From the NCBI GenBank assembly GCA_944324195.1, contig CALUVJ010000006.1, forward strand, positions 1 to 41,759: a stretch of 41,759 bases of DNA, written 5' to 3'. Numbering within the stretch: the first letter of the stretch is position 1; every line of letters starts with the position of its first letter. The translations under genes were made by a program, and so were the position numbers. The stretch comes from Candidatus Gastranaerophilales bacterium (GTDB taxonomy: Bacteria; Cyanobacteriota; Vampirovibrionia; Gastranaerophilales; Gastranaerophilaceae). Positions 3,165 to 41,318 of the stretch are shown in pieces. Below the pieces are notes generated by a model. The model was given only the letters and a program-made list of their open reading frames with translations, ran no database searches and was not told the origin of the DNA.

Positions 3165-4709
3165 TCATACATTATCTGTTCTATTTTCTTCTCTGCGTTT
3201 TTCGCTGTAACTGTATCCGGCGTAAATGGCGAGTCCTATAAGCAGCCAGATTATAAAGTATAATGCGGAAGTTGCTTTTGCGCTAAACTTGCAATACATA
3301 AGTCCGAAACAGGTTACTATACCTAATATCGGAAACCACGGACAGAAAGGAACTTTAAACGGACGCTCTCTATCCGGTTCGGTTTTTCTTAAAATCAATA
3401 CCGCAATACAGATAATTATAAATGAAGTAAATGTTCCGAAGTTGCATAATTCTGCCGATATATTCAAATCCATAAATAAGGCGCAAATAATTACAATTAA
3501 ACCTGAAATCCATGTCAAAATATGCGGAGTTTTAAATTTTTCATGTATTTTATTTAAAGATTTCGGCAGGAAATTATCCCTGCTCATTGCAAATAAAATT
3601 CTTGTAGTACCCAATTGATAAATTAATAAAACCGAAGTCAGAGCGCAAAGCGCCCCCATAGAAATTAATCCCGCATACCAGTTTTTACCGATAAATCTCA
3701 TTGCGTGTGCAAGCGGAGCTTGCGTATCAATTGAATTAAAAGGTACTATACCTGTTAAAACAAGTGCTGCGCAGATGTATAGAATTGTACATATCGCAAG
3801 TGTTCCCATAATTGCTACCGGCAAATCTCTCTGCGGATTTTTTGTTTCTTCCGCAGCCGTTGAAATAGCGTCAAACCCAATATATGCAAAAAAGATTACA
3901 AATGCTCCGGTAAAGATTCCTTCCAGACCGTTCGGCGCAAAAGGAGCCCAGTTCTCAGGCTTAATATAAAAAGAGCCCATTACAATAAAAGAAAGGATTA
4001 TAAACATATTTACCCCGACCATTATTGTAGCGACTCTTGTTGATTCTTTTACACCTTTTACAAGAAGAATTGTAAGCAAAAGTACTATTGCAATTGCAGG
4101 TATATTTATTGCAACAGGAATTTCAAGTCCTAAAGGTAAATGTATAAATGGCATCTTATCGTGAACGTCCCAGCCGTATTTGCTACAGATTTCATACATT
4201 GTTCTGTAATCATTTCTGAGCCAGAGAGGACAATTTACAACAAATGCCGGAAGAATATGCTTGAAACCCTTCATAAACTGAACAAAATAACCTGTCCAGG
4301 CACTTGCAACGGTAATATTCCCGATTGCGTATTCAAGCATCAAAATCCAGCCGACCATCCACGCCATAAATTCGCCCATCGTTGCGTAAGTATATGTATA
4401 AGCGCTTCCCGCAACCGGCATCATTGCTGCGATTTCCGAATAGGATAATGCTGAAAAAACACTCGCAACAGCAGCCAGAACCATTGAAATTACAACAGCC
4501 GTTCCTGCGCCTGCTCCGTCAGAACTTCCTACAATTGCACTTCCGATAATTGTAAAAATTCCCGTTCCGACAACCGCTCCAATTCCGAGTACGATTAAAT
4601 CAAATACTCCGAGTGTTTTCTTCAAGCCGGAATTTGCTCCGGCTTCAATTATTTCCTGAGGACTTTTGCATTTTATTAAATTACTTAGTACTGTATTCAA
4701 CTTTTTCAT
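3165..4709 (-). CDS. APC-superfamily amino acid permease (second copy)
   Basis: A 514-residue integral membrane transporter of the amino acid-polyamine-organocation superfamily, closest in pattern to CAT/YfnA-type cationic or general amino-acid permeases. About 12 hydrophobic helices are visible. The substrate-site loop of TM1 is GIGAVVGTGIFTIIG (about residues 41-55). The SEIAAMMPVAGSAYTYTY region and FAYIGFDAISTAAEE (TM6 area) are also diagnostic. A KVPFCPWFPILG loop precedes the last helices. Its start codon lies inside the 3' end of the upstream permease gene (29-nt overlap), so the two are co-transcribed and probably translationally coupled. Substrate cannot be told from sequence alone. 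Confidence 0.9.
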   Translation of the reverse strand: MKKLNTVLSNLIKCKSPQEIIEAGANSGLKKTLGVFDLIVLGIGAVVGTGIFTIIGSAIVGSSDGAGAGTAVVISMVLAAVASVFSALSYSEIAAMMPVAGSAYTYTYATMGEFMAWMVGWILMLEYAIGNITVASAWTGYFVQFMKGFKHILPAFVVNCPLWLRNDYRTMYEICSKYGWDVHDKMPFIHLPLGLEIPVAINIPAIAIVLLLTILLVKGVKESTRVATIMVGVNMFIILSFIVMGSFYIKPENWAPFAPNGLEGIFTGAFVIFFAYIGFDAISTAAEETKNPQRDLPVAIMGTLAICTILYICAALVLTGIVPFNSIDTQAPLAHAMRFIGKNWYAGLISMGALCALTSVLLIYQLGTTRILFAMSRDNFLPKSLNKIHEKFKTPHILTWISGLIVIICALFMDLNISAELCNFGTFTSFIIICIAVLILRKTEPDRERPFKVPFCPWFPILGIVTCFGLMYCKFSAKATSALYFIIWLLIGLAIYAGYSYSEKRREENRTDNV

Positions 4710-6300
4710 TATCTATCGCTATTTCTTTTTCTTCAGCTAATCTTTCAATTCTTCTATTCTTTTGGTACCCATATGAAGCGTAAATCAAGGCGCCCATAAT
4801 TACCCATACAATAAACATTTCCGTTGATAATCTTGCGGTATCGCCTTTTGCAACAATCATTGAAAATACCATTAAGCCGCCGCAGCAGATAATACCGGCG
4901 AGCGGAAACCACGGGCAGAACGGAACTTTGAACGGTCTTTTTCTGTCCGGATCAACTTTTCTTAGAATTAATATCGCAACGCATACAATAATAAACGAAG
5001 TAAATGTTCCGAAGTTGCAGAGTGAAGTTGCAACATTTAAATCCAGAATTAATGTACCCAAAATACCTACAATACCGACAGTTATTGTCAAAATATGAGG
5101 AGTGTTAAATTTAGGGTGAAGTTTCTGGAATACGCTCGGGAGGAAATTATCCCTGCTCATTGCGTACAATACTCTTGTTGCAGCCATGTGCATTACAAGG
5201 AGCACGGAAGTTAAACCCGCAAGCGACCCGATTGAAATCAAACCGGCTACCCAGTTTTGATGAACTACACTCATAGCAAATGCCATTGGAGCTTTGATTA
5301 AACCTTCCGGAATAACTCCGCCGGTTGTAGGCTGCATACCGGTTAAAACAAGAGCAACAAGAACATACACAATGGTTGTTGCAACAAGTGAGCCTAAAAT
5401 ACCAATCGGCAAATCCTTCTGCGGGTTTTTACATTCTTCTGCAGCAGTTGCAATAGCATCAAACCCTATGTATGCAAAAAAGATTATGAATGCGCCCATA
5501 AATATGCCTTCAAACCCGTTTGGCGCAAAAGGTGTCCAGTTTTCAGGCTTAATATAAAACATACCCGTAAGTACAAATAAAGCAATAACGCCGATTTTAA
5601 CCGCAACCATTATTCCTGCCATTTTAGCGGAATCTTTTGTTCCTTTAACTAAGATAGCTGTAATAAGAGCAATCATAATAATTGCCGGAAGATTTATACA
5701 GAAAGGTATTCCTGCAATATGAGGAATTGCGGTGTGATAATCAATTCCCTGCGCGGTATAAGCCGTTACTGCGGATCTGTAATCATCAACAAGCCACAGG
5801 GGCGGATTTGTAATCCAAGCAGGCAGAATATTTGAAAAACCTTTCATAAATTGTACAAAGTGATTTGTCCACGCACAGGCTACTGCGATAAATCCGATTG
5901 CGTATTCAAGCATCAAAATCCATCCGACAATCCACGCTGCAAATTCGCCTAATGTCGCGAAAGTATAAGCGTAAGCACCGCCCGCGACCGGTATCATAGT
6001 GGCAAATTCACTGTAACATAAGGCCGAGAATACACAGGCAATTGCTGCTATTACCATAGAAATAATAAGAGCCGGTCCTGCTCCCGGGCTTGAACCGTCA
6101 GCACTTCCTGCCGCAGCTACACCTACGATTGCAAAAATTCCGGAGCCGATAATCGCACCAACTCCTAAAATAATTAAATCCCATACCCCTAAAGTTTTTT
6201 CCAAACCGCCTTTTTCAGCGTTTGAAAGTGCATCATCCATGTTTTTAAGGGTTAACATTTTTCTCAAAACCTGAGGTAGTGAAAATCTTTTTTCTGCCAT
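4681..6300 (-). CDS. APC-superfamily amino acid permease (first copy)
   Basis: A 539-residue paralogue of the following permease. They share N-terminal GLxKTLGVxDLIxLGxGA, the TM1 loop GVGAIIGSGIFAIVG, the FAYIGFDAIATAAEE segment and the KVPFCPWFP loop. Differences cluster in the external loop around residues 165-200 and in the longer charged C-terminus (EEKEIAIDNEKVEYSTK). The start follows a good Shine-Dalgarno (AAAGGTGAT). It is the first gene of a two-gene operon with the downstream copy. The pair looks like a tandem duplication that has diverged, perhaps in substrate range. A repeat cluster separates it from glyQ upstream. Confidence 0.9.
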   Translation of the reverse strand: MAEKRFSLPQVLRKMLTLKNMDDALSNAEKGGLEKTLGVWDLIILGVGAIIGSGIFAIVGVAAAGSADGSSPGAGPALIISMVIAAIACVFSALCYSEFATMIPVAGGAYAYTFATLGEFAAWIVGWILMLEYAIGFIAVACAWTNHFVQFMKGFSNILPAWITNPPLWLVDDYRSAVTAYTAQGIDYHTAIPHIAGIPFCINLPAIIMIALITAILVKGTKDSAKMAGIMVAVKIGVIALFVLTGMFYIKPENWTPFAPNGFEGIFMGAFIIFFAYIGFDAIATAAEECKNPQKDLPIGILGSLVATTIVYVLVALVLTGMQPTTGGVIPEGLIKAPMAFAMSVVHQNWVAGLISIGSLAGLTSVLLVMHMAATRVLYAMSRDNFLPSVFQKLHPKFNTPHILTITVGIVGILGTLILDLNVATSLCNFGTFTSFIIVCVAILILRKVDPDRKRPFKVPFCPWFPLAGIICCGGLMVFSMIVAKGDTARLSTEMFIVWVIMGALIYASYGYQKNRRIERLAEEKEIAIDNEKVEYSTK

Positions 6301-6530: not shown

Positions 6531-6540
6531 TATAACCTGC

Positions 6541-6607
6541 TTAGTCACCCAGTCACTTAATCACTTAGTCACTAATCTATTCACTGCTCACCAGTCACTA
6601 TTCACTA
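6541..6607. repeat. 7-nt-period TCACTTAG tract
   Basis: A run of about nine imperfect heptads of the form TTAGTCAC / TATTCAC / CAGTCAC fills the space up to glyQ. The glyQ stop codon (6605-6607 on the plus strand, CTA) is the last three bases of a TTCACTA unit. The same heptads recur at about 10735, 14119, 17801-17880 and 29440. Confidence 0.8.
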
Positions 6608-8875: not shown

Positions 8876-10642
8876 ATGGAAACAACACTTATGGTTTTGG
8901 ATAAAGTTAATTCTTCCAAAGACTTAAAAAATCTTAGTATAGAAGAGCTGGATATTTTATCGGGTGAAATTAGAGAGCTGATACTCAAAAAAGTAAATAC
9001 AACAGGAGGGCATCTCGGACCTAATTTGGGTATAGTGGAAGCAACGATAGCACTTCATTATGTCTTTGATACACCTGAGGATAAATTGGTTTTTGATGTT
9101 TCGCATCAATGTTATCCGCATAAAATTTTGACCGGCAGAAAAGAAGGTTTTACAAATCCTGACAAGTATCAAAAATATACCGGCTATACGGCACCGGAAG
9201 AAAGTGAATATGACTTATTCAAAGTCGGACATACTTCTACTTCAGTCAGTCTGGCAACCGGACTTGCAAAAGCAAGAGATTTAAGGGGCGGTAAAGAAAA
9301 TGTAATTGCGCTGATTGGAGACGGTTCTCTAAGCGGCGGCGAAGCTTTTGAAGGGTTGGATAATGCCGCGGCTCTCGGAAGCAATATAATTGTTGTGGTT
9401 AATGATAATGATATGTCTATAGCAGAGAATCAGGGCGGTCTGTATACTAATTTAAAACTGCTGAAAGATACAAACGGGCAGGCTGAATGTAATTTCTTTA
9501 AGTCTCTTGGCTTTGATTATTATTACGTCGATAACGGAAATGATATTGAAAGTTTAATTTCAACATTCAATAAAGTTAAAGATTCCGACCACCCTGTTTT
9601 AGTACACATAAGAACTATTAAGGGTAAGGGCTGCATAGCAGCGGAAACGGATAAAGAACATTATCATTGGATTGTTCCGGGAGAATTGGATAATGATTAT
9701 TCTCCGGCTGTTTCTCAAGAGGAATCTTATGAAAGTATTACTACGGATTACCTTTTGAAAAAACGTGAACAGGATAATTCAATAATTGCAATATCTCCGG
9801 CAACTCCGGGGGTAAGCGGGTTTACAAAAGAGTTTAGAGAAAAGATGGGCAATAATTATACTGACGTAGGTATTGCAGAGCAGCACGCAGTAGCATTTGC
9901 ATCAGGCTTGGCAAAAAATGGCGCAAAACCGGTACTTGCAATAATGAGTTCTTTTATCCAGAGAGCTTATGACCAGCTTTCACAGGATTTGGCATTAAAT
10001 AACAACCCGGCAACGATTCTCGTCTTTTGGGGCGGAATTACCGGTGCGGATGCAACACACCTTACTAAATATGATATTCCTCTAATTGCAAATATTCCAA
10101 ATATTGTATATTTGGCGCCTGTTAATAAGGAAGAATATCTGGCAATGCTTGACTGGGCAACGGAGCAGAGGAATTATTCCGTAGTAATACGTGTCCCTAT
10201 GTGTCAGATGGTTAGTATCGGTAAAAAAGACACTACGGATTATTCAGTATTAAATAAATACCATGTTGCGGAAAGCGGTTCAGAAATCGCAATTTTAGGG
10301 CTCGGTAATTTCTTCCGGCTTGGGCAAAAAGTAAAATCACTTTTGAAAGACAAGCTGGGTATTTCTGCAACTCTAATCAATCCGCGCTACATTACGGGTA
10401 TTGATAAAGAACTTTTGGAAAGTTTGAAGGCTAATCACAGATTGGTTATAACATTAGAGGACGGGGTTTTGGAAGGCGGTTTCGGCGAAAAAATTGCTTC
10501 TTATTACGGAGCTTCCGGCATGAAAGTTATAAATTTCGGGGCATCAAAAGAATTTACCGATAGAGTTCCGCTGGAAGAACTTTATAAACGTTATCACTTA
10601 ACACCGGAATTGATTTTAGAGGATATTCAAAATCTTTTATAA
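8876..10642 (+). CDS. Divergent DXS-like thiamine-diphosphate transketolase
   Basis: A 588-residue protein of the 1-deoxyxylulose-5-phosphate synthase family (COG1154), shorter than typical DXS (about 620-640). Thiamine-diphosphate and catalytic residues are kept: H46 (TGGHLGPNLG), H77 (DVSHQCYPHK), the GDGSLSGGEAFEGLDNA cofactor motif from 148, NDNDMSI at 176, H264, E335 (DVGIAEQHAVAFA), R363 (FIQRAYDQ) and H395 (GADATH). The two arginines that hold the glyceraldehyde-phosphate group in true DXS are missing. The DRAG motif is WGG here (about 385-387) and RYPRG is RVPM (439-442). It may therefore be a DXS-like enzyme with another acceptor rather than the isoprenoid enzyme. It has its own promoter and a strong terminator; no isoprenoid genes are adjacent. 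Confidence 0.85.
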   Translation: METTLMVLDKVNSSKDLKNLSIEELDILSGEIRELILKKVNTTGGHLGPNLGIVEATIALHYVFDTPEDKLVFDVSHQCYPHKILTGRKEGFTNPDKYQKYTGYTAPEESEYDLFKVGHTSTSVSLATGLAKARDLRGGKENVIALIGDGSLSGGEAFEGLDNAAALGSNIIVVVNDNDMSIAENQGGLYTNLKLLKDTNGQAECNFFKSLGFDYYYVDNGNDIESLISTFNKVKDSDHPVLVHIRTIKGKGCIAAETDKEHYHWIVPGELDNDYSPAVSQEESYESITTDYLLKKREQDNSIIAISPATPGVSGFTKEFREKMGNNYTDVGIAEQHAVAFASGLAKNGAKPVLAIMSSFIQRAYDQLSQDLALNNNPATILVFWGGITGADATHLTKYDIPLIANIPNIVYLAPVNKEEYLAMLDWATEQRNYSVVIRVPMCQMVSIGKKDTTDYSVLNKYHVAESGSEIAILGLGNFFRLGQKVKSLLKDKLGISATLINPRYITGIDKELLESLKANHRLVITLEDGVLEGGFGEKIASYYGASGMKVINFGASKEFTDRVPLEELYKRYHLTPELILEDIQNLL

Positions 10643-10660
10643 GAGGTAGACAAAGTCAGA

Positions 10661-10694
10661 GGAAGAAGGCATTGTCCTTCTTCCTTTTTTTTTT
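10661..10694 (+). terminator. Rho-independent terminator after the DXS-like gene
   Basis: GGAAGAAGG (10661-10669), loop CATTGT, CCTTCTTCC (10676-10684), then ten consecutive T. A textbook terminator. Confidence 0.92.
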
Positions 10695-10716
10695 CGGAAC
10701 TTAGTATTGTGGCGAA

Positions 10717-10761
10717 GGGGGTAAATGTATTGGTTTAGTGATTAAGTGACGGAGTGACTAA
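10717..10761. repeat. Composite repeat: GGGGGTAAAT box plus heptad tract
   Basis: GGGGGTAAATGTATTGG at 10717-10733 is followed directly by TTAGTGATTAAGTGA and GGAGTGACTAAGG. On the other strand this reads heptad tract, then CCAATACATTTACCCCC. That is the same order and orientation as the element at about 29440-29484, showing the two modules belong together. Confidence 0.75.
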
Positions 10762-11088
10762 GGGGGGAGGGGAAAATATTTTAATCCTTCCTGCTGGCGA
10801 GGGGAAGAAGCCGGTCCAATACATCCCCCCCTCACCCGCATTCGTAGCTTTCGCTCAGCTTAAGTACCGCTGCGTCCTCTCCCTTGATAGGAGAGGAATT
10901 TTCAGTATAACAGCCCCTCACCCTAACCCTCTCCCCAAAGGGGCGAGGGGAAAAAACAGGCAGCCCAATATATTTACCCCCTTGGGTTATTCGTGGTGTT
11001 GGAAAACCCTTATCAGCACCCTCCCCTGCCCTCCCTCTTTTAGGGAGGGAGTTAAACAGCCGGCCCAATACATTTACCCCCCCCCTCT
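10761..11088. repeat. GC-rich hairpin array ending in CCAATA-ATTTACCCCC boxes
   Basis: Three related units fill this gene-free stretch (the whole gap is 10643-11154). Each has a GC-rich, hairpin-forming half followed by a box: CCAATACATCCCCCC at about 10815, CCCAATATATTTACCCCC at 10964-10981 and CCCAATACATTTACCCCC from 11064. Hairpins include CTCCCC-AAA-GGGGCGAG (about 10930-10950), CTCTCC...GGAGAG (about 10876-10893) and CCCTCCCTCTTTTAGGGAGGG (about 11030). The CCCTCACCCTAACCCTC wording matches a repeat type common in bacterial intergenic space. Base composition is far from that of the neighbouring genes. Open frames here on both strands look accidental. Confidence 0.75.
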
Positions 11089-11154
11089 TGAAATTTATTT
11101 TTGTTAGCAATATAAAAGTATTTGGTAAAATTAATTTTGGGAATATAGATAGTT

Positions 11155-17798: not shown

Positions 17799-17880
17799 AA
17801 GTGACTGAGTGATTAAGTGATAAAGATATTAATTTATTAAATCACTTATTCACCTAGTCACTTAGTCACCTAGTCACTTT
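17799..17880. repeat. Inverted heptad repeat between the large and small subunit genes
   Basis: AAGTGACTGAGTGATTAAGT at about 17799-17818 is the imperfect inverse of the run ATCACTTATTCACCTAGTCA near 17841-17860. About 20 of 23 positions pair around an AT-rich loop. A further CTTAGTCACCTAGTCACTT lies downstream. It is the largest gap inside the operon's 3' half and could form an mRNA hairpin just before the Shine-Dalgarno of the next gene (GAGGT at about 17888). Confidence 0.75.
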
Positions 17881-19145: not shown

Positions 19146-19200
19146 GTCAGGTGTACAGTAATATTACAACCCAATAATGAAATTTAGGAATACGGAAATT

Positions 19201-20979
19201 ATGAAGAAACAATTAGGCTATTTGCTTGCAATTTTATGTCTTTTATCTGTAAATAAAGTATTTGCAGATCCGATGGCGGGTACAGTTTTGCCGGCTCAAG
19301 TTCAAGCCGAGTTAGGCGGGTATAACCCGGGGGCATACAACACAACAGAATTGCAAAATATTAATCATTATGAAGTAGACAAAAGTTATATTCAGTCTTT
19401 TGACGATGTGACAAAAGATGAACAGATTTATGATGCTACAATAGAAGAAAATCAAGCTCGTGAGGGTGTTTTATACAATCCCCACTTCTTATTGCAGAAA
19501 ATAAATTTTGAAGGAAATACACAAATCCCGACTGAAGAGCTTGAAAAATTAGGCTTGGAAGTTTTAGGCGAAGATATTTTCTTTGATGAACTTTTAGAAG
19601 TTTGTCAAAAGGTAACTAATTACTATAGAGCAAAAGGGTATCTGACTTCATATGCAACAGTTCCGCCGCAAAGAATTGTTGATGGTGTTGCTACCATCAA
19701 AATTGTCGAAAGTAAGGTGGGCGAATTAAATATTGAAGGTGAAAAATGGACAAGAGAATGGTACCTTCGTCATATAATTATGGGCAAGGCAGGGCTTAGA
19801 GAAGGTGATGTATTTAACGCTAAAAACCTTCAAAGAGCAATGAAAGAAATTAACCGCGAAGATTATGTGCAGGTACAAACAGAGGTAGAAAGACAACAGG
19901 AAGGTGAAGAAAATACTGCAATAACCTTGAATGTAAGAGACAGATTCCCGGTAAATCTGAATTTCTCATATGATGATTACGGTCGTTCATATACCGGTGC
20001 TCAAAGAGTTTCATTCCTTGTTGGGATGGATAACTTAACAGGTTTGGGCGATAAAATATACGGCGGTACTATTCTATCTTCAGGAGCTACCGGTTGGATG
20101 GCCGGGTATTCACTTCCGGTATCTTCATACGGAACCAGATTGTCGTTCGATTTCTCCGATTCTCATGTAAGATTAGGCGGACCTTACAAGAATTTGAATG
20201 TAAAAGGTAATGCTCAAAGCTATTTCTTCAAATTAACTCAGCCGCTTATCCAAACTGCTAAATCAGATTTAATTTTATATACCGGTTATGATTATGTAAA
20301 TGCAAATACTTCTGCATATATAGCAGGCAATCCTTTAAGATTATCAAATTATAACCTCCACGTATGGCGTTCAGGCTTATATGGTATGACAGATGACAAT
20401 TACGGACGTTGGATTGGTAATTTCGGATTTGATTTCGGTTTGACAGGGGACGGACACGGTGCAATACAAGATACAACATTTGTTAAATTGACTGCCGGCG
20501 CTACCCGTGTACAAAGGTTGTTCGGACGCGGTTTAGGTATTGTAAGAGTTGGCGGTCAATATTCACCTAATAAATTATTTGCAGCAGAACAAATGCAAAT
20601 GGGCGGACCGTATACTTTGAGAGGTTACCAGCCTGCAGAATTAATCGGTGACTATGGTGTTACCGGTACTGTTGAATATCGTTTCCCTGTACCGTTCCTG
20701 GATAGAGTCGCTCCTAAGATTGATGAAAGATTAAAACTGGCTGTGTTCTATGATTGGGGCTGGTTGGGTGAAAATGGAAATATTTATAACTATCCGCAAT
20801 CATTCTTGCATTCAGTTGGTTTCGGAACATATGTTAACTTTACTGATTGGCTGACTGCGCAAATCGGTGTAGGTTTCCCTCTGGGAAGAGATTACAACGA
20901 AAATACTGCAAGATTTTATTTCAGTGTTAATTCAGACTTAGATAGATTAATTCCGCTAAGGAATCCTGAAAAACTGTAG
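19201..20979 (+). CDS. TpsB-type outer-membrane transporter (ShlB/FhaC/HecB family)
   Basis: A 592-residue outer-membrane beta-barrel of the Omp85/two-partner-secretion superfamily, which exports a large TpsA partner across the outer membrane. A signal peptide runs over residues 1-23 (MKKQLGYLLAILCLLSV, cleavage near VFA-DP). Two POTRA domains follow (about 85-245): LLQKINFEGNTQIPTEEL begins the first and VGELNIEGEKWTREW the second. From about 245 the sequence alternates in beta-barrel fashion, with the superfamily YTLRGYQPAEL (VRGY-type, lid-loop) motif at about 470. I chose the ATG at 19201 because AGGAATACGGA precedes it. An in-frame ATG at 19177 would put eight polar residues before the signal. 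No TpsA gene is adjacent. Confidence 0.88.
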   Translation: MKKQLGYLLAILCLLSVNKVFADPMAGTVLPAQVQAELGGYNPGAYNTTELQNINHYEVDKSYIQSFDDVTKDEQIYDATIEENQAREGVLYNPHFLLQKINFEGNTQIPTEELEKLGLEVLGEDIFFDELLEVCQKVTNYYRAKGYLTSYATVPPQRIVDGVATIKIVESKVGELNIEGEKWTREWYLRHIIMGKAGLREGDVFNAKNLQRAMKEINREDYVQVQTEVERQQEGEENTAITLNVRDRFPVNLNFSYDDYGRSYTGAQRVSFLVGMDNLTGLGDKIYGGTILSSGATGWMAGYSLPVSSYGTRLSFDFSDSHVRLGGPYKNLNVKGNAQSYFFKLTQPLIQTAKSDLILYTGYDYVNANTSAYIAGNPLRLSNYNLHVWRSGLYGMTDDNYGRWIGNFGFDFGLTGDGHGAIQDTTFVKLTAGATRVQRLFGRGLGIVRVGGQYSPNKLFAAEQMQMGGPYTLRGYQPAELIGDYGVTGTVEYRFPVPFLDRVAPKIDERLKLAVFYDWGWLGENGNIYNYPQSFLHSVGFGTYVNFTDWLTAQIGVGFPLGRDYNENTARFYFSVNSDLDRLIPLRNPEKL

Positions 20980-20990
20980 TATAGAATAAA

Positions 20991-21039
20991 TACAAAACAA
21001 GGGGGCAAAATTCTTTGAATTTTGCCCCCTTGTTTTGTA
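20991..21039. terminator. Long perfect hairpin after the TpsB-like gene
   Basis: A 23-bp perfect stem (20991-21013 with 21017-21039) closes a 3-nt TTT loop. Its GC core is GGGGGC / GCCCCC, and it ends in TTGTTTTGTAA. Terminator in the plus direction; the symmetric A/T flanks would allow both. Confidence 0.85.
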
Positions 21040-39839: not shown

Positions 39840-41318
39840 TTAATATTTCTTAATAAAATCTTTAAGTGTCTCAATTGAACGTTTTGCCAGAAGCTCTGCT
39901 TTAAGCTTTTTATTTTTCCTGTCTTTTGGGGGTAAATCTTTTGGGGGTAAATCTTTTTGGGGTAAATCTATCGGTGCTACAATTGCCCAGTTTGAATTTG
40001 TCGGCTGGAGAGGTAAATATCTGATAGAATTATCACGCGATGAAATATGCTTCAGGTGTGCGATATCAGTAATATAAAATGTTAAAGCACCGAGCATTGT
40101 TTCTCTCGGAAGGGTGAACAGGCAATCTTCATTTTGCTCCTGCTCTCCTCTCCGGGATGCGGAGCGGAAGGCGGAGAGGGTAGAATTTCTTTGTGAGCTT
40201 TGCGAACTTAGAAATTCGGGAGAGGTTTGAACTCTCTTTGCCATATTTATCCCCGCAAGCATACCTGTTGCAATCGATTCGGTGTATCCTTCCGTACCTG
40301 TTATTTGGCCGGCAAAGAATAGACCTTTTCTTTTTTTGGTCTCTAAAGTCGGGTTGAGTATTTGCGGGCTGTTGATGAATGTATTTCTGTGCATAACCCC
40401 GTACCGTACGATATTTGCATCTTCTAGTCCGGGAATTGAATGAATTAACTCTTTTTGCGCTCCCCATTTAAGATTTGTTTGGAATCCGACAAGGTTAAAC
40501 AGGGTTTTTGCGGAATTATCCTGTCTCAACTGTACTACTGCGTAGTTTTCTGTTCCGACTCTTTTATCAATAAGTCCTACAGGCTTCAGCGGACCGAATC
40601 GTAAGGTGTCAACACCTCTTGAAGCGAGGACTTCTACAGGAAGACAGGATTCAAAGTATTTTGAATTTTTATCAACATCATGCTGCTCAATTCTTGGCGC
40701 GTTTATTAATATATTATAGAAATTTTCATATTCTTCTTTGTTCATAGGGCAATTAATGTATGAAGCTTCGCCTTTATCATATCTTGATGCCCAGAAAGCT
40801 TTATCAAAGTTGATAGAATCAATTTCTACAATAGGAGCAATTGCGTCAAAGAAGTGAAGATGTTCACTCTGCGTAAATTCTTTTATAGCTTCCGCAAACC
40901 GGTCGCTTGTTAACGGGCCGGAAGCTATGATTACGTTACCGTCCGGAATTTCGGTTACTTCTTCCCTTATTAATTCAATATTGGGTTCGGATTCAATCTT
41001 TTCTGTAACCGCCTTGGAAAAATCCTCTCTTGCTATTGCGAGCGCATTTCCTGCCGGGACAGAGTTTTCATAAGCGATTTTAATTAATTCTCCGCCCAAT
41101 ATTTCCATCTCTTTCTTTAAAAGCCCGCTGGCATTCGTTATGTCGGAAGAACCCAGACTGTTTGAACATACAAACTCCCCGCAATCTCCCGTTACGTGAG
41201 CACCCGTGGTCTTATTCGGGCGCATTTCATATAGTTTAACTTTTATCCCTCTTTTAGCAAGCTGCAAGGCTGCTTCCGAACCTGCCAATCCTGCTCCGAT
41301 TATTTTTACTTCTTCCAT
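39840..41318 (-). CDS. trmFO: TrmFO tRNA m5U54 methyltransferase with repeat-derived insertions
   Basis: A 492-residue folate- and FAD-dependent tRNA (uracil-54-C5) methyltransferase; usual length is about 435-450. The N-terminal FAD motif GAGLAGSEAALQLAKRGIKV (residues 7-26), YEMRP, CGEFVCSNSLGSSD, INCPMNKEEYENFY and GQITGTEGYTESIATG are all intact. Two extra segments sit in the C-terminal half. Residues about 365-394 (from TSPEFLSS to GEQEQNE) come from a hairpin-forming repeat. Residues about 450-465 are three DLPxK units encoded by 15-nt repeats. Neither breaks the frame. FAD and fold residues suggest a functional enzyme. Confidence 0.94.
   Translation of the reverse strand: MEEVKIIGAGLAGSEAALQLAKRGIKVKLYEMRPNKTTGAHVTGDCGEFVCSNSLGSSDITNASGLLKKEMEILGGELIKIAYENSVPAGNALAIAREDFSKAVTEKIESEPNIELIREEVTEIPDGNVIIASGPLTSDRFAEAIKEFTQSEHLHFFDAIAPIVEIDSINFDKAFWASRYDKGEASYINCPMNKEEYENFYNILINAPRIEQHDVDKNSKYFESCLPVEVLASRGVDTLRFGPLKPVGLIDKRVGTENYAVVQLRQDNSAKTLFNLVGFQTNLKWGAQKELIHSIPGLEDANIVRYGVMHRNTFINSPQILNPTLETKKRKGLFFAGQITGTEGYTESIATGMLAGINMAKRVQTSPEFLSSQSSQRNSTLSAFRSASRRGEQEQNEDCLFTLPRETMLGALTFYITDIAHLKHISSRDNSIRYLPLQPTNSNWAIVAPIDLPQKDLPPKDLPPKDRKNKKLKAELLAKRSIETLKDFIKKY
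39924..39968. repeat. Three 15-nt tandem repeats inside trmFO
   Basis: TTTTGGGGGTAAATC occurs twice, followed by the variant TTTTTGGGGTAAATC. The core is the same GGGGGTAAAT box seen between genes. On the coding strand each unit reads as Asp-Leu-Pro-(Pro/Gln)-Lys. Confidence 0.85.
40137..40225. repeat. Hairpin-forming insertion inside trmFO
   Basis: It contains CCTCTCC (within 40143-40153) paired with GGAGAGG (40173-40179), then GAATTTCT (40183-40190) paired with AGAAATTC (40210-40217). A final GGGAGAGG follows. Its GC-rich CTCTCC/GGAGAG wording and the GAGCTTTGCGAACTTAG stretch recall the intergenic array at 10840-10895. Confidence 0.7.

Follow-up and report, generated by a model that had tools for sequence, protein, structure and literature searches.

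The window analysed here is the whole 41,759-nt stretch, contig C6 of a draft assembly of a Candidatus Gastranaerophilales bacterium (genome G000; 1.84 Mb in 115 contigs, 84.48% complete), and every same-genus assembly with which it was compared is also a draft. The features on which the analysis turns are the following:

39843-41318, minus strand: trmFO, 492 aa, FADH2-oxidising methylenetetrahydrofolate--tRNA-(uracil-54-C5)-methyltransferase
40113-40229, minus strand: lengthened linker with insertion, 117 nt, 39 codons against 7 in relatives
40147-40225, minus strand: long-form palindrome of 79 nt with two hairpins (GAATTTCT...AGAAATTC and CCTCTCCG...CGGAGAGG)
39922-39969, minus strand: 15-bp tandem expansion encoding DLPQK-DLPPK-DLPPK (TRF score 89, period 15, 3.2 copies); one unit in relatives
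10916-10934, plus strand: short-form palindrome copy in an intergenic repeat mosaic of the window

The trmFO gene, its linker and its DLPxK block

Against the equivalog model NF003739 (cut-off 262) the trmFO product scored 597.6 bits, and against TIGR00137 (cut-off 428.65) 558.8 bits; the T. thermophilus TrmFO structure 3g5q matched it with an E value of 2.7e-119. The open frame is intact across the insertion with both flanks in frame, which, together with the equivalog match, bears out the sequence-only reading that the frame and core motifs of this gene are kept. The lengthened linker starts after INMAKRV, at the junction of the FAD-binding part and the C-terminal part of the enzyme, and contains 39 residues. 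Between INMAxR(V/I) and LPxETMLG the linker measured exactly 7 residues (21 nt) in 104 of the 107 TrmFO rows that covered it. Several families of Gastranaerophilales are represented among the 104, as are 17 rows (L245-L261) almost entirely from Bacillota. The exceptions were the window, with 39 residues, and L034 and L182, the same contig of genome G023 recorded twice, with 20. These rows were drawn from 110 TrmFO loci, of which a first alignment took 89 and a later one recovered 18 of the remaining 21, all with 7 residues; L042 and L062 end before the site, L244 was not recovered, and the same contig is included twice in the pairs L034/L182, L037/L183, L039/L184 and L051/L187.

A linker of 117 nt against one of 21 nt corresponds to a net gain of 96 nt, or 32 residues, composed of the 79-nt element plus 17 nt, and the trmFO protein matches of most same-genus relatives show a gap from query residue about 365 to about 400. 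This is in keeping with the in-frame hairpin element of about 30 extra residues that had been proposed from the letters of the window, and the polarity of the change is that of an insertion. The alternative, that the extra segment is an old part of TrmFO which other lineages have lost, is opposed by the matches of its DNA to dispersed repeats elsewhere in the genome and by the linker of exactly 7 residues in 104 of the 107 rows; no point in favour of such an ancestry was found, and we regard it as hardly credible. The sequence-only reading had itself named conservation of the segment in distant TrmFO proteins as the result that would speak against it, and none was found: the distant rows, Bacillota included, have 7 residues, so that result did not arise.

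The gene still appears to be under constraint with the insert in place. At codons where the relatives G002 and G029 agree, silent changes on the G000 branch numbered 51 upstream of the insert and 12 downstream of it, against 4 and 1 replacement changes, respectively; branch counts were chosen over ratios because dS was saturated or undefined for most pairs. Judged from these substitutions, trmFO still looks functional. Two TrmFO genes were present in G002 (G002:C119 and G002:C40), one of which may be accounted for by the 8% contamination of that assembly.

The predicted TrmFO structure had a mean pLDDT of 78, with averages per block of ten of 63, 49 and 57 over residues 371-400. Values below 50 were obtained for the DLPxK segment (residues 453-459) and also at residues 156-158 and 214-224, both outside the inserts, such that low confidence is not limited to the insert. 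The closest solved structures were T. thermophilus TrmFO entries with TM-scores of 0.54-0.63 and an rmsd of about 12, and the placement of domains in the model is therefore rough. The low model confidence, equalled in some conserved stretches, suggests that the inserted segment may resemble a flexible loop. The earlier proposal that the element makes new peptide segments holds as coding potential of the trmFO insert only.

Of 89 rows, the window has a DLPxK segment of 16 residues, and in the other 88 the segment measures 5-8. Many relatives carry the codons GATTTACCNAAAAAA (DLPKK) once at the block site, G029 has a single DLPPK there, and the two occurrences of the 14-mer GATTTACCCCCAAA in the own genome both lie within the block. 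With at most one mismatch allowed, the window contains 13 sites of the GGGGGTAAAT box where 2.67 would be expected and no shuffle gave more than 9; four of the 13 lie in trmFO and nine elsewhere, and the box is also found in intergenic mosaics. The 45-nt block had been taken for an inserted box of this intergenic type; the tandem repeat is real, but its origin as an inserted box was rejected, as relatives already have GATTTACCNAAAAAA or DLPPK codons once. With a single DLPKK or DLPPK unit in relatives, the favoured reading of the 15-bp unit is tandem repetition of ancestral sequence, and its likeness to GGGGGTAAAT is best put down to coincidence and one or two base changes. The DLPxK run would thus be an event separate from the hairpin insertion, probably a slippage-type expansion of a 15-bp unit of ancestral codons.

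A modular palindrome family and a second linker insertion

The trmFO element is confirmed as a palindromic repeat dispersed genome-wide: a search of the own genome at E<=1 gave 35 matches, one of them the trmFO copy itself. It was present in 20 of the 57 genomes searched (own included), all of one genus, and among 30 own-genome long-form copies, for which ORFs of at least 60 aa were checked by eye, only the trmFO copy lies within a recognisable gene. The surrounding 126-nt stretch (40120-40245) folded better than 200 of 200 shuffles (z -3.49). Compensated changes were seen in 8 of 23 consensus pairs among 12 long-form copies, representing few independent events because several of these copies are near-identical tandem ones. 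An Rfam scan of the window gave no matches at the gathering threshold. Several long-core copies (L005-L007, L009, L011, L012 and L014) have another dispersed repeat, CATTGCGAG...GCAATCC in form, upstream of the core.

The short palindrome, at no more than one mismatch, was found in 46 of 58 genus genomes, in which a reversed-pattern control had no matches. In a set of 292 genomes drawn from the whole phylum, the own family among them, 82 had it, and none of the matches listed there was to the control. Copies were read in a non-random sample that comprised one locus each for 30 genomes plus stretches around exact matches of six genomes; every one of the 14 G000 matches was also taken in, as were 16 of the 28 G023 matches. 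This sample yielded 108 distinct short-form copies from 100 loci, with the right arm present in 95. A copy was considered intragenic if spanned by an ORF of at least 150 aa that extended 40 aa or more beyond it in both directions; 14 ORF rows spanned a copy, and after three rows (L285 twice, and L434) were dropped as repeat-only by eye, 11 of the 108 copies lay in gene-like ORFs, with most sampled copies outside them. Eight of the 11 are read as PHPNPL (two of these being one AlaRS site) and one each as PSPQPSP, LTPTLS and, in reverse, ERARVRV. One forward consensus frame contains a stop (TAA), so the frame preference is a bias and not a rule. The one-mismatch match at L456, an LTLTL segment without the right arm, can be chance.

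Retention of the element for a nucleic-acid role (an mRNA hairpin, attenuation or DNA structure), with the peptide as a by-product, would fit the conserved two-hairpin fold and its compensated pairs. We nevertheless consider it improbable, given that copies are read in several frames and that three other intragenic copies fold unevenly (z -1.24, -2.85 and -0.92), the fold therefore not being uniformly strong.

Within the window, the intergenic repeat mosaic at 10640-11110 combines the short palindrome with ATTTACCCCC boxes at 10972 and 11072 and GGGGGTAAAT at 10717. Arrays of an 8/16-bp TCACTTAG/TCACCTAG unit at 17842-17879, 6540-6577 and 10728-10762, also seen inverted, represent another dispersed repeat. 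A perfect 23-bp inverted repeat with a 3-nt loop (20991-21039), just past the ORF at 19177-20979, is probably a terminator, and two neighbouring minus-strand ORFs at 3165-6300 contain stretches that are 71-72% identical at the DNA level and separated by 1573 bp, likely a tandem gene duplication.

The linker of the G023 trmFO has 13 extra residues (GLTPHPNPLLEER), in frame, which derive from a shorter palindrome, CCTCACCCTAACCCTCTCC-TCGA-GGAGAGG, a different member of the same modular family. The window and G023 elements share the outer modules CCTC[A/T]CCC, CCCTCTCC and GGAGAGG, and the long form has the GAATTTCT...AGAAATTC hairpin at the place of TAA in the short form. A TrmFO tree of 32 rows, with the insert columns left out, placed G000 with G002 and G029 (95/89) and G023 outside, with support of 88/49 for G000 plus G002. 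The tree needs two changes (starred branches), and one change sufficed in 1% of 200 bootstrap trees; shuffling the labels was uninformative because, with two rows labelled, chance alone produces two changes (500/500). This favours two separate linker insertions, in G000 and in G023, a conclusion that rests on one gene tree. The outer modules and linker common to both elements could also point to a single insertion in the G000/G023 ancestor, remodelled by repeat exchange and then either removed precisely from the other genomes or passed on through gene exchange, but this would require exact excision in both G002 and G029 in addition to overriding the two changes forced by the tree, and appears unlikely.

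In-frame copies in other conserved genes

In-frame insertions in conserved genes, judged against homologues without the copy, were found in TrmFO, AlaRS, PrmC, MnmE and PgeF. The AlaRS of G029 has a 14-residue in-frame copy that is absent from 20 other rows covering the site (one masked there), and the own-genome AlaRS (L430 2-2377, minus strand, contig C92) carries an in-frame short palindrome at the same site. In PrmC, G077 has an in-frame copy and G002 a diverged one, and 22 other rows have none; solved homologues concur for AlaRS (14-residue gap) and PrmC (12-residue gap). An in-frame MnmE copy in G020 and G008 is absent from 20 other MnmE rows, with no net gain against distant solved homologues. 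The PgeF copy, of the long-core type, was found in G008 and is absent from 12 other genus genomes, although a long loop occupies this position in representatives of other families in the order. The parallel with Rickettsia palindromic elements drawn in the sequence-only reading is apt, and extends beyond the one gene for which it was made.

Further candidates are an MBL hydrolase of G023, with 9 extra residues against 2xf4, and a TIGR03936 protein of G018, with about 20 extra residues against its profile. Several others were not counted: LpxK of G004, for which the solved homologue aligns to residue 220 and the insert lies at 240; PheT of G023, which gained about 2 residues against a distant solved homologue; HydF of G008, with no gain against its profile; a 158-aa ORF of G023 with no NCBIfam matches at E<=1e-10; and a fused ORF of G009 that contains a copy and that resembles DUF559 plus an epimerase. 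Outside the class but within the phylum, similar palindromes occur in long ORFs of L452, L453 and L455, which presumably resemble cobalamin or restriction genes.

These copies also bear on the prospect that the repeat was misjoined into trmFO during assembly of the draft genome. Several repeat copies do lie at contig ends (e.g. C4:8-60 and C55:30-105), so the repeat does trouble assembly. A chimera is nonetheless very improbable in view of the frame kept across both trmFO flanks, the AlaRS insertion at one site in the separate assemblies of G000 and G029, and the PrmC copy in G077 with its diverged counterpart in G002.

Mobility, known systems and interpretation

A Y1_Tnp (PF01797) gene was found in 31 of 56 genus genomes. 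The short palindrome, with up to three mismatches, occurred at none of the 23 Y1-transposase loci read (22 distinct); at one of these, part of the long core was matched with a single mismatch, and a ATTTACCCCC box was present at three. A RAYT-like Y1 transposase was therefore rejected as the mover: the genes exist, but the loci read are without the short palindrome. No target-site duplication was seen by eye at the copies read, and GTAG or its complement lay within 12 nt on the left of 1 of 108 copies, as did CGTC or its complement (1 of 108).

The genus resembles REP/RAYT systems in having short palindromes, which can number tens in one genome, together with Y1_Tnp genes; unlike in those systems, in which REPs flank the RAYT gene, the 23 Y1_Tnp loci read here are not accompanied by the short palindrome. 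As regards MITEs, a right arm was seen in 95 of 108 copies, and no duplication by eye. The palindromic elements of Rickettsia (RPE) and those of Wolbachia (WPE), an alphaproteobacterial endosymbiont, offer a likeness of behaviour only: a dispersed palindrome in frame in unrelated genes in the former, and in-frame insertion with the gene apparently active in the latter. A 2002 Rickettsia paper is said to call in-frame palindromes "a unique but recurrent feature" in its title. The host lineage here, by contrast, is Gastranaerophilales. The elements described here are about 35-80 nt long as against the ~150 bp given in a review of RPE, which also places nearly half of RPE within genes; here, gene-like ORFs contain 11 of the 108 short copies sampled. 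RPE are described as dispersed palindromic DNA that also occurs in frame inside unrelated metabolic genes (PMC10969869, PMC3733652), a similar evolution in other prokaryotes is called conceivable (PMC10969869), and in-frame WPE insertions are described as apparently leaving genes active (PMC4224334). No report of palindromes in Gastranaerophilales genes was found in the literature searched.

Taken together, we estimate a probability of roughly 0.88 that a non-coding, REP/MITE-like modular palindrome was inserted in frame in the trmFO linker and is tolerated there, the DLPxK run being a separate tandem expansion. Under this reading, a non-coding palindrome of the modular family would spread through the genome and would have entered the trmFO linker at a length and in a frame that keep the gene open, and the enzyme would tolerate the added ~32-residue segment, perhaps at near-neutrality, while selection continues. 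Insertions that break genes would presumably be purged, whereas copies landing in tolerant loops with a frame-keeping length would survive, so that the copies seen in genes would be the in-frame ones in tolerant loops.

In-frame palindromes in core genes, known from Rickettsia and Wolbachia, are now found in a gut lineage of Cyanobacteriota. A wider claim, that a modular palindrome family present in the Cyanobacteriota at large has time and again, and independently, entered the same permissive loops of core translation and tRNA enzymes, and that the lengthening of loops by dispersed palindromes is thus a general process, still under way, by which proteins change outside the Rickettsiales, is possible, and we advance it tentatively as a view that has somewhat less than an even chance of being right. 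Close relatives with and without each insert provide several before-and-after pairs, which allow direct measurement of the cost, the tolerance and the possible use of a newly acquired peptide.
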